The notes under the pieces are model-generated. The model was given only the letters and a program-made list of their open reading frames with translations, was not told the DNA's origin and searched no databases. 64,000 nt of DNA. Origin: Corallium rubrum (lineage: Eukaryota > Cnidaria > Anthozoa > Scleralcyonacea > Coralliidae). The translations under genes were made by a program, and so were the position numbers. The DNA lies in the NCBI GenBank assembly GCA_964035015.1, contig OZ036008.1, forward strand, positions 6,477,504-6,541,503, given 5' to 3'. Positions 6,508 through 31,901 of the stretch are shown here, one piece after another (positions within the stretch are counted from its first letter, which is position 1; each line of letters opens with the position of its first letter).

Positions 6508-8034
6508 TCATTGTTTTTGCTGTTGTTTTTCCCATTGTTCTGGGGTGTAAGTCTTCATTGTAAAAGCATGAATAGATTTCAGTTCTTCTTCGAGACATGT
6601 GTTTACTAGTCTGTGTCTTCGCAGCAGTGGTTTCCCAGTAAACTTGTCGGAGACTATTATCACAGAGAAACTGGTGTCACATTTCTCAGCTGTGATGTCC
6701 ACTACATCCTAAGATGAAACAGAACATTGAGGAGTGGAAAGAAGATGATGGCAGACAGACACAGGAAAGAATGCCATGGGATAAAGTGAGGGGTGACTAT
6801 GAGAGTGCGAGGAGGAGAAAAGGGAAAAAAACAAGTGAGAAGAAAGGGGAGAAAAAAGAAAGTGATAAGAGCAGTGGTGTAGGCAGGGTCTTGGCTTTGG
6901 GGGGCAAGAACCTCAAGGGCCGATTTCTAGGGTCTCTGAAACACTATTTCCTGCATTTTGAGGCAAGTATTTAAGAGTAATCTGAAAGCTACAAATGACA
7001 TAATTTTGTTGTCAAACCAGGACAATGATACACATCAGAATATTTTTAGATTTATTTATAAACAAGCTGTAAATGTAAAAACAAAGTTGGAGGCATTTTA
7101 TATAGACCCTTAGTATTGTAAATTTATACCATATGCATGCCTGATAAACATTTATATGTGTAACACATTATTTCATGATTGAGTCAGTTTTCTTTGGGGC
7201 TGTATATAGCATACAGCCCTTGAATACTAATTAGAAAAGAAATGAAGAGGAAAACTGGGAAAATCTTTGTCCAAAAAAAAACAACATAACTTTGTTGGAA
7301 AACCTCCTCAATCATGAAATAAGTCAGATAAAACCCTCGAATGTTGGGATGTATGCGATATACAGCCCTCGGACGCTTTGTGTCCTCGGGGCTGTATATA
7401 GCATACATCCCTCGTTCTCGGGCTTTATCTCTTACTAGTCTACTCACTTGGCCTTAAAACAACTAGCCTGTGTAGTTGGCGGTATTAGGGAGTGTGGGTG
7501 CGGGTGGTAGGTGGGCAACAAAACAACTACCCCTGGTCTTGGAGACCATTGGGGGGGAGGGTCATCACCCCCATTGGCCACGCCATTAGAGCAGAGAGGA
7601 AAGAAAGGGAGAAAAAAAGAAAGGTTAGAGAGTGGGAAGAGGGAAGATAAGAAAGAAGTTTAGGAGGTGAGGAATGGTGGGAGAAAGGAGAGTGAAAAAA
7701 AAAAGAATGGGGTTGTTGAAAGGGAAAAGAGAAAGAGGGAGGAAAAAAGGGGACAAAAAAAGGAAAATAGTAATGGTAGTCTGTTATCCACTGAAGGCAA
7801 ATGAAGATTAGGAATGAAGGAGAAAGAATTTACAGTACTAGAAAGAAGCCTGGCGATGGAGAAAAGAAAGAAGGATAGGAAAGATTTGGAGGTTGGGAAT
7901 GAACAGAATTATGACAGCCAGCCATGATAAAAAGCTAGGTGGGAAAATCTGTAAATCTATTCACTTACTAAATGCGTTGGATTAAATTCTTCCTTTAGTT
8001 TCTGTTCCACAACTGCCTTCACTTTGTCTGACAT
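6508..8034 (-). CDS. BOLA2: BolA-like protein 2
   Basis: Small cytosolic BolA protein. In other eukaryotes BOLA2 forms a [2Fe-2S]-bridged complex with the monothiol glutaredoxin GLRX3 for iron-sulfur cluster trafficking. Exon 1 is 8034-7969 (22 codons, ATG to a TTA/GTAAGT donor) and exon 2 is 6708-6508 (acceptor TCTTAG, stop TGA); the intron is in phase 0. The 88-aa product matches the family length (human 86). Exon 2 carries the signature FTGKPLLRRHRLVN, containing the conserved ligand histidine, then ELKSIHAF. A cysteine before DTSFSV sits where human BOLA2 has its putative second ligand. The start codon is only 60 bp from the edge of a 7.6-kb foldback element that separates it from PPIL2. 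No frameshift or missing residue was noticed. Confidence 0.95.
6709..7968 (-). other. BOLA2 intron
   Basis: Contains a purine-rich stretch (about 7580-7900) and a foldback repeat around 7166-7440. The open frame at 6714-6974 on the opposite strand is lysine/glutamate-rich low-complexity translation of the purine tract and is not regarded as a gene. Confidence 0.7.
7166..7440. repeat. Foldback repeat with repeated GGGCTGTATATAGCATAC motif
   Basis: An inverted pair (around 7167-7182 and 7307-7322) encloses a spacer. The motif GGGCTGTATATAGCATAC occurs near 7197 and 7388 and in altered form near 7350. It looks like a small non-autonomous element; its class is unknown. Confidence 0.5.
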
Positions 8035-8218
8035 CTTGTAAATTGAAGTATCAGGTCAGCGGAGTACTTCAAAAAAAAGGATAGGTACTTCATGTTAGGG
8101 TCCATATAGTGGTTATATATATATTTAATACTATACGCTTATGACATATAGTGGTACTTACATTATGACATATAGTGGTACTGACATTATAGTTGTTACA
8201 TACTTATACTTTATTCTT

Positions 8219-10128
8219 TAAATGCTTTACATGCTTTATATGCTTTATATGCTTTATATGCTTTACCTGCTTTACCTGCTTTATATGCTTTACCTGCTTT
8301 ACATGCTTAATATGCTTTATATGCTTTACATGCTTTACCTGCTTTATATGCTTTATATGCTTTATATGCTTTATATGCTTTACCTGCTTTACCTGCTTTA
8401 CCTGCTTTATATGCTTTATATGCTTTACCTGCTTTACCTGCTTCATATGCTTTACCTGCTTTATATGCTTTATATGCTTTACCTGCTTTATATGCTTTAC
8501 CTGCTTTATACGCTTTATATGCTTTATATGCTTTCCATGCTTTCCATGCTTTATATGCTTTATATGCTTTATATGCTTTACCTGCTTTATATGCTTTATA
8601 TGCTTTATATGCTTTACCTGCTTCATATGCTTTATATGCTTTAACTGCTTTATATGCTTTATATGCTTTATATGCTTTATATGCTTTATATGCTTTATAT
8701 GCTTTATATGCTTTATATGCTTTACCTGCTTTACCTGCTTTACCTGCTTTACCTGCTTTACCTGCTTCATATGCTTTACCTGCTTTACCTGCTTTATATG
8801 CTTTATATGCTTTATATGCTTTATATGCTTTATATGCTTTACCTGCTTTACCTGCTTTACCTGCTTTACCTGCTTCATATGCTTTACCTGCTTTACCTGC
8901 TTTACATGCTTTATATGCTTTATATGCTTTATATGCTTTACCTGCTTTACCTGCTTTACCTGCTTTACCTGCTTTACCTGCTTCATATGCTTTACCTGCT
9001 TTACCTGCTTTATATGCTTTATATGCTTTATATGCTTTACCTGCTTTACCTGCTTTACCTGCTTTACCTGCTTTACCTGCTTCATATGCTTTACCTGCTT
9101 TACCTGCTTTATATGCTTTACCTGCTTTACCTGCTTTATATGCTTTATATGCTTTATATGCTTTACCTGCTTTACCTACTTTACCTGCTTTATATGCTTT
9201 ACCTGCTTTACCTGCTTCATATGCTTTATATGCTTTATATGCTTTATATGCTTTACCTGCTGTATGTGCTTTATATGCTTTACCTGCTTTATTTGCTTTA
9301 TATGCTTTACCTGCTTTACCTGCTTCATATGCTTTATATGCTTTACCTGCTTTATATGCTTTATATGCTTTATATGCTTTATATGCTTTATATGCTTTAT
9401 ATGCTTTACCTCCTTTATATGCTTTACCTGCTTTAGCTGCTTTATATGCTTTACCTGCTTTATATGCTTTATATGCTTTCCATGCTTTCCATGCTTTATA
9501 TGCTTTATATGCTTTACCTGCTTTATATGCTTTCCATGCTTTATATGCTTTATATGCTTTCCATGCTTTATATGCTTTATATGCTTTACCTGCTTTATAT
9601 GCTTTACCTGCTTTATATGGTTTCCATGCTTTCCATGCTTTATATGCTTTCCATGCTTTATATGCTTTATATGCTTTCCATGCTTTATATGCTTTATATG
9701 CTTTATATGCTTTCCATGCTTTATATGCTTTCCATGCTTTATATGCTTTATATGCTTTCCATGCTTTATATGCTTTATATGCTTTCCATGCTTTATATGC
9801 TTTATATGCTTTATATGCTTTCCATGCTTTATATGCTTTATATGCTTTATATGCTTTATATGCTTTCCATGCTTTATATGCTTTATATGCTTTATATGCT
9901 TTCCATGCTTTATATGCTTTATATGCTTTATATGCTTTATATGCTTTATATGCTTTATATGCTTTATATGCTTTACCTGCTTTATATGCTTTACCTGCTT
10001 TACCTGCTTTATATGCTTTACCTGCTTTATATGCTTTCCATGCTTTCCATGCTTTCCATACTTTATATGCTTTATATGCTTTATATGCTTTCCATGCTTT
10101 ATATGCTTTATACGCTTTATATGCTTTA

Positions 10129-10138
<10 letters not shown>
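8219..10138 (+). repeat. 9-bp minisatellite, left arm
   Basis: About 213 tandem units of TGCTTTATA and TGCTTTACC with minor types TGCTTCATA and TGCTTTCCA. The TGCTTTCCA type is concentrated at 9477-10110. Between about 8717 and 9120 a higher-order pattern of runs recurs (several ATA units, several ACC units, one CATA unit, two ACC units). Because the unit is nine bases, all frames lacking a stop stay open, producing very long but meaningless ORFs on both strands. Confidence 0.97.

Positions 10139-10199
<61 letters not shown>
10136..10199 (+). repeat. (TA)n microsatellite
   Basis: About 64 bp of TA repeat at the inner end of the left minisatellite arm. Confidence 0.95.
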
Positions 10200-10204
<5 letters not shown>

Positions 10205-11238
10205 TTGTCAAGCAATAACATAAGGCCAAGCAATGACATTACCGGCATGACATTTTGTACTCCACACGGTCTAAGTATAAAAGAAACTTCGGTGAAGACA
10301 ACACTAACAAATTAATATATTTTTTTGTCTAGTTAAATGTTGAGTATTGTAGCTAGCAGTTAATGGCTCATTTAAATGCTTATGAAAATGAACCCAGCAC
10401 TCAAACTCAGTTTCAGACCGGGAATAAAACGTTGTGTAGTTTGCGCATTGATTTTTGCAATTAATATTGTATAAAAAACAACTTAAAGTCTAAGATAAGT
10501 CGATGTAAATGTTTGGGTTTAATTATTGTGTTACTTCACATTTCGAGTTAAATTTAATAAATTGTTGAATTTGATCTTCAAACACATGGTGAAACTATTT
10601 TTGATGGTACATATACTCTACTTTCAACTTGGCCCGTTTTTTTGTTTGTCTATATAGCCAATTAAGTACAATGAATGCCCTGAATATACTATATCTGACT
10701 GCCTAGTACATTAAGGAAATTAAGTTTCAATTCTTATAATGACAACTGACAAGTTAAGAAAATTGCCACATGCGTGAATATTCATAATAATCGCACATGT
10801 GTCGATTATCATGAAACGCATTAGAGTTTACCGCTCTATTTTTGTGGGGAAATAGGACTTTTATATAATAAACAGAGCATGCAATACATGAATGTTTGGA
10901 AATATGAAATTATTTCTCGTGTTGAACAGGATATCTTACTCGTCCGCTTTGCTCACTCATGACATATCCTGTCAACACTCGAAATAAGTATCATATTTTC
11001 ACACACCATACATTATTCTGTATACAACCTTCACCCTAAAGCCCGTGGTTCTCGGTATAGACCCTTTTAATAAGTATAGAATACGTAATTTTCACCCTTT
11101 GACGTCAATTTCTTTTCAAATTTTATTTTGAATTATTTTCAATTTCGTTTATTGTTCTAGCTTCTGTATATTTTCAGTATAATGCAAAAGGTTGAAAATG
11201 ACGTCACTAGCGGAAAATGACGTACTCTGCACTTATTA

Positions 11239-11300
<62 letters not shown>

Positions 11301-11302
<2 letters not shown>

Positions 11303-11539
11303 GTGTGGGTTTTTGGTCTACGAAACGCAAAGAGTGCTCGATAACATATAGTAGCAAATATAGATTTTCGTTTACCTCAAAAGTCTGCAACAGGCTGTTT
11401 CATCTAAAAAAGAATTCTGAAGATTCTTTTTTAGATGAAACAGCCTGTTGCAGACTTTTGAGGTAAGCGAAAATCTATATTTGCTCTAACTATATGTTAT
11501 CGAGCACTCTTTGCGTTTCGTAGACCAAAAACCCACACG

Positions 11540-11540
<1 letters not shown>
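11301..11540. repeat. 240-bp hairpin between two (TA)n arrays
   Basis: Arms of about 110 bp are almost perfect inverted copies: the left starts ACGTGTGGGTTTTTGGTC and the right ends with its complement. The loop is a few bases around GAATTCTGAAGATTC. It sits within a TA microsatellite, as expected for a TA-targeting foldback element or a palindrome born by replication slippage. Confidence 0.85.
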
Positions 11541-11609
<69 letters not shown>

Positions 11610-12425
11610 TCGCAGGAGGCGAAGTAGATTGAAGCTGAGTAGATTGAAGCTCATCTATTCTTCAGAATCAGGAGCGGGTTTAGGATTTTGAAAAAATCAG
11701 TCAAAGTTGTGGTCCACAGTTGTAGGGGGTCCAGGGCATGCTCCCCCGGAAAAGTTTTGTAATTGACGTCTCTAAAATGGCATTTCCCACTATCTGACAG
11801 CAGAGTTGAGCAAAATTTTGAAACTTTTAAAACATATTTTTAATGGCACATTTTATCATTTTTACAAAAGATTTTGTCCAAATTGGCGTTTTCTAAACTT
11901 TTAATATTGAGAAAATTATGCAGCATTAAAATTATAAAATACGTAATGCTTAATCACAATTCACGACAACTTCAGTACTCTATTCTCATTTCACGGACAA
12001 AGATTTCACAAAGATTTTTTATCAGATATAAACGTATCATGAACATATACTACTGATTTCCTTCGTAATTCATAATTCTCAAACTCATTAGCAATTCATA
12101 ACATAAAAACAAAGGAAATCAGTACCGAGACTGGAGGTTGGATATCCCAGGAAGCAACATAATTACATAAATTAAGCCAACTTTCACCTTGATTTTCTCT
12201 TTAAACACTGATTCGTCTGAGAAGCAACATATCAAACACTCGAAAGAGTGTTTCATCCGATAACCAAACCCAAGAAGTGGGTTGAAAAAACGAGGCCTTA
12301 GGATATCGGATGAAATACTCCCTCGTGTATATCTATCACATATTGAACTATCATATAAAGCACAAGCATGATAAAGCCTGATATATAAAGCATACAAAGC
12401 ATATAAAGCATATATAAAGCATATG

Positions 12426-12720
12426 AAGTACTGTATAATAAAGTTTTTAAGGAGTGTTTTATCAGATATAAAGACACGAGGCGAAGCCGAGTGTTTTTAT
12501 ATCTGATAAAACACGAACTGCGAGTTTATTATACGGCTTCAAAAACGAACCACTTGGTAAGTTGATTGGCGGAGTTAGTTTGAAAAATAACCTTGTCTAA
12601 GCCGAGAAAATCAAAGCTAAAGTTTATGTAAATCAGGAGAAATCTTTATCACATATAAAGATACGATACGGTCATGATTTTCTTTTGTGTTTTCCTCATT
12701 AATTATTAATGAGTTTTTGA
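12426..12720 (+). repeat. Dispersed repeat, uninterrupted copy
   Basis: Begins with a hairpin containing GACACGAGGCGAAGCCGAG and runs to TTATTAATGAG. The same sequence occurs at about 21788-22425, where it is interrupted by a 327-bp insertion. This copy therefore shows the empty site (CTTGTCTAAGCCGAG). Confidence 0.85.
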
Positions 12721-15555
12721 AGCACATATAAAGCATATAAAGCATATAAAGCATATAAAGCAGGTAAAGCAGGTAAAGCAGGTAAAGCAGGTAAAGCATA
12801 TAAAGCATATAAAGCATATAAAGCAGGTAAAGCATATAAAGCATATAAAGCATATAAAGCAGGTAAAGCATATAAAGCATATAAAGCATATAAAGCATAT
12901 AAAGCATATAAAGCATATAAAGCATATAAAGCAGGTAAAGCAGGTAAAGCAGGTAAAGCAGGTAAAGCAGGTAAAGCAGGTAAAGCAGGTAAAGCAGGTA
13001 AAGCAGGTAAAGCAAATAAAGCATATAAAGCAGGTAAAGCAGGCAAAGCATATAAAGCAGGTAAAGCATATAAAGCAGGTAAAGCAGGTAAAGCATATAA
13101 AGCATATAAAGCATATAAAGCAGGTAAAGCAGGTAAAGCATATAAAGCAAATAAAGCAGGTAAAGCAGGTAAAGCAGGTAAAGCAAATAAAGCAGTTAAA
13201 GCAGGTAAAGCATATAAAGCATATAAAGCATATAAAGCATATAAAGCAGGTAAAGCATATAAAGCATATAAAGCATATAAAGCAGGTAAAGCAGGTAAAG
13301 CATATAAAGCAGGTAAAGCAGGTAAAGCAGGTAAAGCATATAAAGCATATAAAGCATATAAAGCAGGTAAAGCATATAAAGCATATAAAACAGGTAAAGC
13401 AGGTAAAGCAGGTAAAGCATATAAAGCATATAAAGCATATAAAGCATATAAAGCAGGTAAAGCATATAAAGCATATAAAGCATATAAAGCATATAAAGCA
13501 TATAAAGCAGGTAAAGCATATAAAGCATATAAAGCAGGTAAAGCAGGTAAAGCATATAAAGCATATAAAGCATATAAAGCAGGTAAAGCAGGTAAAGCAG
13601 GTAAAGCATATAAAGCATATAAAGCATATAAAGCATATAAAGCAGGTAAAGCAGGTAAAGCATATAAAGCAGTTAAAGCAGTTAAAGCAGGTAAAGCATA
13701 TAAAGCATATAAAGCAGGTAAAGCAGGTAAAGCATATAAAGCATATAAAGCAGGCAAAGCATATAAAGCAGGTAAAGCATATAAAGCATATAAAGCATAT
13801 AAAGCATATAAAGCATATAAAGCAGGTAAAGCATATAAAGCATATAAAACATATAAAGCAGGTAAAGCAGGTAAAGCAGGTAAAGCATATAAAGCATATA
13901 AAACATATAAAGCAGGTAAAGCAGGTAAAGCAGGTAAAGCAGGTAAAGCATATAAAGCATATAAAGCATATAAAGCATATAAAGCAGGTAAAGCATATAA
14001 AGCATATAAAACATATAAAGCAGGTAAAGCAGGTAAAGCAGGTAAAGCATATAAAGCATATAAAGCATATAAAGCAGGTAAAGCAGGTAAAGCATATAAA
14101 GCATATAAAGCATATAAAGCAGGTAAAGCATATAAAGCATATAAAGCATATAAAGCATATAAAGCAGGTAAAGCACATATAAAGCATATAAAGCATATAA
14201 AGCATATAAAGCAGGTAAAGCAGGTAAAGCATATAAAGCAGGTAAAGCAGGTAAAGCAGGTAAAGAAGGTAAAGCAGGTAAAGCAGGTAAAGCATATAAA
14301 GCATATAAAGCATATAAAGCAGGTAAAGCATATAAAGCATATAAAGCATATAAAGCATATAAAGCATATAAAGCATATAAAGCATATAAATCATATAAAG
14401 CATATAAAGCATATAAAGCATATAAAGCAGGTAAAGCAGGTAAAGCATATAAAGCATATAAAGCAGGTAAAGCATATAAAGCAGGTAAAGCATATAAAGC
14501 ATATAAAGCATATAAAGCATATAAAGCAGGCAAAGCACATATAAAGCATATAAAGCATATAAAGCAGGTAAAGCAGGTAAAGCAGGTAAAGCAGGTAAAG
14601 CATATAAAGCATATAAAGCATATAAAGCAGGTAAAGCATATAAAGCATATAAAACATATAAAGCAGGTAAAGCAGGTAAAGCAGGTAAAGCAGGTAAAGC
14701 AGGTAAAGCATATAAAGCATATAAAGCATATAAAGCAGGTAAAGCAGGTAAAGCATATAAAGCATATAAAGCATATAAAGCAGGTAAAGCATATAAAGCA
14801 TATAAAGCATATAAAGCATATAAAGCAGGTAAAGCATATAAAGCATATAAAGCATATGAAGCATATGAAGCAGGTAAAGCAGGTAAAGCAGGTAAAGCAT
14901 ATAAAGCATATAAAGCAGGTAAAGCAGGTAAAGCAGGTAAAGCATATAAAGCATATAAAGCAGGTAAAGCAGGTAAAGCATATGAAGCAGGTAAAGCAGG
15001 TAAAGCAGGTAAAGCATAAAAAGCAGGTAAAGCATATAAAGCATATAAAGCATATAAAGCATATAAAGCAGGTAAAGCAGGTAAAGCAGGTAAAGCATAT
15101 AAAGCATATAAAGCATATAAAGCAGGTAAAGCAGGTAAAGCATATGAAGCAGGTAAAGCAGGTAAAGCATAAAAAGCAGGTAAAGCATATAAAGCTTATA
15201 AAGCATGGAAAGCATGGAAAGCATATAAAGCATATAAAGCATATAAAGCAGGTAAAGCATATAAAGCATATAAAGCAGGTAAAGCATATAAAGCATATGA
15301 AGCAGGTAAAGCAGGTAAAGCATGTAAAGCAGGTAAAGCAGGTAAAGCAGGTAAAGCATATAAAGCATATAAAGCATATAAAGCATATAAAGCAGGTAAA
15401 GCAGGTAAAGCATATAAAGCATATAAAGCATATAAAGCATATTAAGCAGGTAAAGCAGGTAAAGCATATAAAGCAGGTAAAGCAGGTAAAGCAGGTAAAG
15501 CATATAAAGCATATAAAGCATATAAAGCATATAAAGCATGTAAAGCATGTAAAGC
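12721..15555 (-). repeat. 9-bp minisatellite, right arm (inverted)
   Basis: About 315 tandem units, the reverse complement of the left-arm units (TATAAAGCA, GGTAAAGCA). The outermost few hundred bases share marker variants with the left arm in the same order from the outside (CTTAATATG, CTTCATATG, two TGCTTTCCA units near 15205), proving common origin of the arms. The TGCTTTCCA block of the inner left arm is missing here. The long open frames are artefacts. Confidence 0.97.
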
Positions 15556-15810
15556 ATTTAAAGAATAAAGTATAAGTATGTAACAACTATAATATCAGTA
15601 CCACTATATGTCATAATGTAAGTACCACTATATGTCATAAGCGTATAGTATTAAATATATATATAACCACTATATGGACCCTAACATGAAGTACCTACCA
15701 AAAAAAGAGAATACAGAATCATAATATCCAGTTCACTGGATGAGAAAATCTTCGGAGCTTTGAAGCCGTTTTACAAGCAGAAATATCTTGCTTAGTTTTA
15801 TGAAACCAGT

Positions 15811-31901
<16,091 letters not shown>

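Follow-up and report, generated by a model that had tools for sequence, protein, structure and literature searches.

A recent giant foldback transposon copy between BOLA2 and PPIL2 in Corallium rubrum, with probable motif-directed targeting

Between BOLA2 and PPIL2, in a 64,000-nucleotide stretch of the Corallium rubrum genome (hereafter the window), lies a 7,620-bp element with a long inverted-repeat structure, which we regard as likely to be a recent copy from a family of giant foldback DNA transposons, probably non-autonomous, whose targeting is mostly directed by a motif. The family is multicopy: 22 distinct insertions were examined, and in every one of the 18 for which both flanks were read the 8-bp target duplication is perfect.

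The element and the gene pair it separates

The earlier note on this DNA had described a foldback element of 7.6 kb separating the two genes, and such an element is indeed there: its arms pair (141 of the outermost 142 positions are identical between left and right), and the 8-bp duplication AAAAAAAG is a perfect match that directly abuts both remnants of the intergenic gap. The ends proposed at 8094 and 15695 have nonetheless to be moved to 8080 and 15699, and the TA taken for the flanking duplication sits within the terminal repeat, the flanks themselves carrying AAAAAAAG (table 1). A TA duplication was rejected at the level of the family as well, since GGT directly precedes AGGTACTTC (the AGG taken as the end) in 40 of the 42 ends examined, with GAT instead at the left end in the window and AGT at one end of C28:2989468, and since the 8-bp duplication lies outside this sequence in all 18 insertions read on both flanks.

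Table 1. Features of the window (positions within the 64,000-nucleotide stretch)
Feature	Position	Strand	Remark
BOLA2 exon 2	6511..6708	-	stop codon next, 6508-6510
BOLA2 exon 1	7969..8034	-	ATG to GTAAGT donor
BOLA2-side remnant, 45 bp	8035..8079	-	includes one duplication copy
Target motif GGTCAGCGG	8054..8062	+	17 bp from motif end to element
Target duplication, left copy, 8 bp	8072..8079	+	AAAAAAAG
Foldback element, 7,620 bp	8080..15699	.	ends GATAGGTACTTC...GAAGTACCTACC
Outer terminal repeat, left	8080..8211	+	
Left-arm tandem array	8212..10140	+	9-bp unit, 214 units
Family interior	10141..12724	+	longest frame outside repeats 125 aa
Near-perfect palindrome, 240 bp	11301..11540	.	within interior, flanked by TA microsatellites
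Right-arm tandem array	12725..15567	-	9-bp unit, 315 units, reverse complement of left
Outer terminal repeat, right	15568..15699	-	
Target duplication, right copy, 8 bp	15700..15707	+	AAAAAAAG
PPIL2-side remnant, 111 bp	15700..15810	+	includes other duplication copy (103 bp without)
PPIL2, from its ATG across collinear, in part weak, exon matches	15811..30889	+	reaching residue 484 of human PPIL2

The family interior is present, whole or partial, in all 10 of the other copies that were fetched whole, and a Pfam scan of its six frames in the window returned no match. The palindrome that it contains is probably an older nested miniature element.

BOLA2, whose ATG lies at 8034 on the minus strand, consists of two exons with an in-frame junction, the second of which matches Pfam BolA (E=2.9e-19), and its coding part is intact. 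On the plus strand, PPIL2 starts with the ATG at 15811; in a comparison whose query was the human PPIL2 sequence, the last exon match is weak and a clear match is missing for residues about 13-42, 217-238, and 485-520, and the coding part is apparently intact. Next to BOLA2 the remnant measures 45 bp and next to PPIL2 111 bp, instead of the 59 and 115 bp claimed earlier. When the element and one duplication copy are removed in silico, the rejoined empty site leaves 148 bp from ATG to ATG, which, together with the perfect duplication, supports the previous proposal that the element separated a tight head-to-head pair. This gap may have acted as one shared BOLA2/PPIL2 promoter, both genes may be essential, and the element might supply promoter or insulator sequence, as the earlier note suggests; a literature search on the two genes as a bidirectional pair found no paper.

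Closest to the window copy are C30:7709380 and C122, with about 3 substitutions apiece over about 2,130 aligned bases, a divergence of about 0.14% that counts substitutions only and leaves gaps out, and on this basis the insertion is young. Array sizes favor C30:7709380 as the nearest copy, which was not retained as the single closest one because C122 is equally close by substitutions. That the gap was already wide, the element having entered a long intergenic region that a deletion trimmed later, is very improbable, given both the youth of the insertion and the perfect 8-bp duplication directly adjoining each remnant. The window insertion may still be polymorphic, with empty alleles possibly remaining in the population, and its low divergence suggests a within-species comparison of alleles with and without the element over an old between-species one. 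The window copy also represents a clean test of stretching a 148-bp inter-start gap to 7.8 kb.

A motif at constant spacing on one side of the element

The core C[A/T]GCG, within a consensus of about AGGTCAGCGGT, is found on one side of the element in 18 of 22 insertions (14 of the 18 read on both flanks and 4 of the 4 read on one), counts that include part of the data on which the motif was defined. From the C of the motif to the element, the distance is 22 bp (23 bp in the window), and from the motif end it is 16 bp in the other 17 motif-bearing insertions. The core occurs elsewhere in 41 flanks at about 0.8 per kb, and in 13 motif-bearing insertions no such motif is seen on the far side of the element. 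Among five insertions fetched after the motif had been defined, four carry it at the same offset, three of them in new contexts, since C12:1027285 shares its repeat site with the earlier C30:9493707 (the same site was hit in two repeat copies, with different duplicated letters). The motif is absent from 4 of the 18 fully read insertions, namely C28:2738390, C28:2989468, C28:10712979, and C20:10280110; for the last two, it had been predicted on a then-unseen flank and was absent once that flank was fetched. In the window, GGTCAGCGG precedes the BOLA2 start codon by 19 bp, so that the 148-bp gap offered a target, and the fixed distance between motif and element in most readable relatives may explain the landing between BOLA2 and PPIL2.

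With regard to what recognizes this motif, we consider it an evenly balanced proposition that the transposase or a partner protein reads roughly 10 bp of asymmetric sequence and sets the insertion at a constant 16 bp on one side, in a Tn7-like manner, and that this rule placed the window copy. A more tentative reading, although one to be taken seriously, is that the motif instead marks sites bound by a host protein, such as a transcription or replication factor, alongside which the element inserts in open chromatin. P elements prefer promoters and origins, according to PMC7776569, SYCAGCG is observed 16 times in the window when 8.0 are expected, and the window site falls within the short gap between two gene starts. 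However, the base-exact offset in 17 of the 18 motif-bearing insertions is tighter than expected from open chromatin alone, and several motif-bearing targets are located within or next to retroelement coding sequence or other repeats (C51:5197504, C39, C20:16364962, C30:9493707, C12:1027285, and C22:8853892). It seems improbable, lastly, that the element chiefly targets the gaps separating divergent genes, the motif being only a common promoter element there: the window gap would fit this pattern, as would the C30:7709380 copy, which sits between two divergent start-exon-like frames, but the right-hand gene at that locus has a weak likeness to Plavaka transposase (E=1.1e-5, slightly short of the Pfam cut-off), so that this divergent pair may itself be mobile DNA and was not counted as a second split host promoter, and other insertions hit retroelement coding regions, repeats, and a palindrome.

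Proposed insertion and likeness to known transposons

Under the motif-directed targeting that we favor, a transposase supplied in trans would bind the near-identical ends, move the element by cut-and-paste, and join the ends to the target DNA with an 8-bp stagger, while a one-sided motif resembling AGGTCAGCGGT would mostly direct target choice and would presumably be bound in the process; the insertion point would then lie 16 bp beyond GTCAGCGG, that is, an 8-bp spacer plus the 8-bp duplicated site. Since neither a transposase, in the copies read, nor an autonomous copy, the longer ones having been read in part, was found, the cut-and-paste step is proposed from the duplications and the ends only. 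After insertion, each gene would retain a short leader of its own (45 bp for BOLA2 and 111 bp for PPIL2), and both would face the same outward-reading terminal repeat, BOLA2 and PPIL2 being possibly expressed either from these remnants or from the TATA-rich repeat.

In Tn7, a protein on a recognized site directs insertion at a fixed one-sided distance. Tn7 is bacterial, makes a 5-bp duplication, and has a known dedicated target protein, and the likeness is one of behavior only. The target preferences of eukaryotic cut-and-paste transposons are mostly centered on the duplication. For P and hAT, a 14-bp motif containing the duplication is described (PMC3706591). If true, base-exact spacing from a motif on one side would make target choice predictable and would point toward an insertion system directed by sequence.

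Long terminal inverted repeats holding tandem repeats, as well as a variable middle domain with no evident transposase or coding capacity in the copies read, are found here as in foldback elements (FB of Drosophila, Tetris, sea urchin elements; for Tetris, PMC4079207). Tetris arms reach 1,735 bp according to the same source, against about 2-7 kb among the copies here, and the family differs from foldback elements by its 8-bp duplication in 18/18 insertions and its one-sided target motif at a fixed offset. Sequence-directed insertion is shared with the Dada superfamily, in which Dada-U6 and Dada-U1 have a short sequence whose spacing from the target duplication is likewise constant; however, Dada makes 6-7 bp duplications inside snRNA/tRNA genes, against 8 bp here, and Dada-U6 and -U1 are described as devoid of the terminal inverted repeats that the present element has (PMC3706591). 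An Rfam scan of 17 of the 18 motif-bearing loci gave no match at the insertion in any of the 17, placing none inside a small RNA gene, and its two tRNA-like matches lie about 750-850 bp away.

The duplication of 8 bp in 18/18 led us to reject Tc1/mariner or any other superfamily duplicating a 2-bp TA. Mutator elements make target duplications of 9-11 bp. The 8 bp read in 18/18 falls outside that range, a length test that is not decisive since Tetris, with 8-10 bp, was assigned to Mutator by its authors (PMC4079207). An 8-bp duplication agrees with the P, hAT, and KDZ superfamilies (for the latter, the Zisupton value in PMC12730594). P elements, which likewise combine this length with a preference for promoters, are described in PMC7776569 as not site-specific in their insertion, unlike the motif offset here, and Galileo, a foldback-like member of the P superfamily, has tandem repeats within its terminal repeats, as here (PMC4079207). 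An autonomous relative would be expected to encode a THAP-domain transposase if the family belongs to P, a hAT transposase if to hAT, and a KDZ transposase if to KDZ; no THAP transposase was found in the copies read. The end sequences of P and Galileo differ from those of the present family.

Other copies of the family

Across the genome, family ends pair in opposite orientation, about 7-22 kb apart. The 40 bp adjoining the element are similar between C51:5197504 and C39; a single homologous retroelement site was not accepted for the two, as protease-like frames begin at unequal distances and identity is therefore not established. C1 holds a nested frame matching reverse transcriptase, and nested frames of C51:1933387 match reverse transcriptase, SAP/GDSL, and BEL/Pao-type retroelement families, two nested frames in these copies having no Pfam match. 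The frames in C22:8853892 belong to a distinct element, 9,679 bp long and carrying a protein kinase, that is nested in this copy.

Borders of the element and the gene pair around it

The foldback element of the window, which lies on contig C30 of the genome (474 Mb, 312 contigs), has arms whose outer 142 bp agree at 141 positions. Further in, each arm carries an array of a 9-bp unit, with 214 units in the left arm and 315, in reverse complement, in the right, and between the arrays lies a 2.6-kb interior holding a 240-bp palindrome with TA microsatellites on both sides; the structure is of the foldback-element type as outlined in PMC4079207. The longest interior frame outside repeats is 125 aa, and six interior frames scanned against Pfam gave no match. 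A genome search for such ends, in which 40 of 91 candidates were scored, so that copy number is a lower bound, yielded 22 distinct insertions. This count takes C51:5197504 and C8:42864674 together: their flanks are 99.6% identical over 758 bp and divergent beyond, and 99.5% identical over the 785 bp read on the other side, and they therefore represent one insertion, duplicated or carried along with a host repeat. The host retroelement copies there (stretches L020/L047-L048 and L017/L019, respectively) are about 99.5% identical.

The earlier note had set the ends of the element at TA; instead, GGT immediately precedes AGGTACTTC at 40 of the 42 ends examined (the exceptions being the window's left end, with GAT, and one end of C28:2989468, with AGT), and the element end is therefore GGTAGGTACTTC. 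Beyond it stands a perfect 8-bp duplication, AAAAAAAG in the window copy, in 18/18 insertions with both flanks read (13 compared by script, five from printed strings).

Once the element and one duplication are taken out, 148 bp separate the two start codons, 45 bp on the BOLA2 side and 103 bp on the PPIL2 side. BOLA2 has two exons joined in frame (GTAAGT donor, TTAG acceptor), the second matching Pfam BolA; PPIL2 exon matches, some of them weak, are collinear up to residue 484 of a human PPIL2 query, of which residues ~13-42, 217-238, and 485-520 have no match. BOLA2 and PPIL2 were thus formerly a tight head-to-head pair, and the 148-bp gap may have been a single shared promoter. The same outward-reading repeat now faces both genes, and judging from its sequence, its TATATATATATTTAA stretch could act as a promoter. 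The copies of element-interior pieces found inside PPIL2 are probably a smaller repeat shared with that interior. The two intronic frames in PPIL2 appear similar to a Tigger/pogo transposase in its C-terminal portion; a 76-residue piece of them had no Pfam match.

Coordinates of the features discussed (bare positions refer to the window; L handles are stretches read around family copies, C handles contigs)
Feature	Location	Size	Details
Foldback element	8080-15699	7,620 bp	between BOLA2 (minus) and PPIL2 (plus)
TATATATATATTTAA stretch of outward-reading repeat	from 8114		
Dyad ATCCAGT-TC-ACTGGAT	15726-15741	7-bp arms	PPIL2-side remnant; possible regulatory site
Two frames separated by a stop	17377-17739		PPIL2 intron
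Copies of element-interior pieces	21789-21960; 22290-22411		inside PPIL2; direct, 95-98%, from 12428-12721
Right-hand frame at C30:7709380	L065:1356-3221	622 aa	weak Plavaka transposase match, E=1.1e-5, just under cut-off
tRNA-Ser-like sequences	L001:2473-2545; L028:683-755		
Element nested in C22:8853892 copy	C22:8856445-8866123 (L063:2446 to L062:1123)	9,679 bp	ends CTCAGGTGCATTAATGCC
BEL/Pao-type frame nested in C51:1933387 copy	L035:2713-8352	1880 aa	open frame

A motif at a fixed distance from the insertions

In 32 flanks, 46,189 bases in all and read in the direction of the element, there are 12 occurrences of SYCAGCG: ten at a common offset (two of these being one duplicated insertion), one a base farther, in the window, and one elsewhere. 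Among 41 flanks, 17 ends have the core C[A/T]GCG at 22 bp from the element and one has it at 23 bp; elsewhere in these flanks it is found at about 0.8 per kb. Counted by insertion, the motif is present in 14/18 with both flanks read and in 4/4 with one flank read, hence in 18/22. The binomial value for 14/18 is 1e-36, in-sample; a cleaner figure, 3e-11, comes from five insertions retrieved once the motif had been defined, of which four carry it, one of them sharing its site and its repeat with an earlier insertion. Across 14 insertions chosen for having the motif, C.GCG does not vary, with AGGTCAGCGGT as the approximate consensus; one A was taken out of the window row for this alignment. The opposite flanks of 13 insertions hold no comparable motif, with 1 of 44 positions, adjoining the element, above the 99% level of random columns. 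C22:8853892, inserted within a palindrome, has the motif on both sides (offsets 22 and 21), and in the window the motif, GGTCAGCGG, remains next to BOLA2, whose ATG is 19 bp away. Against this pattern, the motif is absent from both flanks of C28:2738390, C28:2989468, C28:10712979, and C20:10280110; for the last two, it had been predicted on a then-unseen flank, and both predictions failed. GGTCAG is found near the site in the first two, at other offsets.

The insertion sites could also be thought to follow gene starts, as at BOLA2-PPIL2. C30:7709380 is likewise flanked by two divergent start-exon-like frames, but the right one has a weak match to a Plavaka transposase; exons of nitrilase-like and GBP-like genes stand close to two further insertions. 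Several motif-bearing targets nonetheless are no evident host-gene promoters: the target is a retroelement gag-protease region at C51:5197504 and, judged by frame, at C39; a retroelement integrase frame is found ~300 bp away from C20:16364962 (query with four stray letters); C30:9493707 and C12:1027285 struck two copies of one repeat; and C22:8853892 struck a palindrome. The motif accounts for the insertion sites better than gene starts do.

Nine insertions have the motif on a single side and an interior whose orientation is known. In six of them (window, C30:7709380, C30:9493707, C1, C51:1933387, C8:42864674) the motif stands at one same element end and in three (C22:5610119, C12:6542594, C122) at the opposite one; each end is thus able to face the motif. 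Most likely, a transposase supplied from elsewhere would cut with an 8-bp stagger, the motif being read by the transposase itself or by a bound partner.

Known relatives and family divergence

The literature on fixed-distance targeting includes titles on a casposon integrase and on CRISPR-associated transposases, and that on target-specific DNA transposons includes titles on Dada and Pokey. Dada has target sequences at a fixed distance but, unlike this family, is reported with 6-7 bp duplications and in small RNA genes (PMC3706591). Rfam gave nothing at the insertion in the 17/17 loci scanned, from the 18 motif-bearing insertions, and a tRNA scan of 28 loci gave two tRNA-like sequences, none at an insertion; both flanks concerned have a common repeat at 91%, possibly a tRNA-derived SINE. 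P elements likewise make 8-bp duplications, although their insertion is described as lacking site specificity (PMC7776569), and Zisupton too is described with 8-bp duplications (PMC12730594). With no transposase found in the copies read, the family is placed in no superfamily.

All ten further copies retrieved in full contain the interior of the window's element, whole or partial, at 94-99% identity in most cases; it is also present in C22:8853892. Copies diverge by substitution at a mean of 1.3% and 0.8% in two interior blocks, with 11 sequences in each, and of 1.0% in the 127-bp end (30 ends). By interior-block substitutions, gaps left out, the closest to the window copy are C30:7709380, 1.2 Mb off on the same contig (0 and ~3 in the first and second blocks), and C122 (~1 and ~2); the array sizes of C30:7709380, once reversed, are similar to the window copy's. 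Some copies contain nested elements: the one in C22:8853892 holds protein kinase pieces (PF00069, E=3.8e-18) and a 701-aa frame with no Pfam match near cut-off, and the BEL/Pao-type frame in C51:1933387, queried as three pieces, matches Peptidase_A17, DUF5641, and integrase zinc-binding domains.
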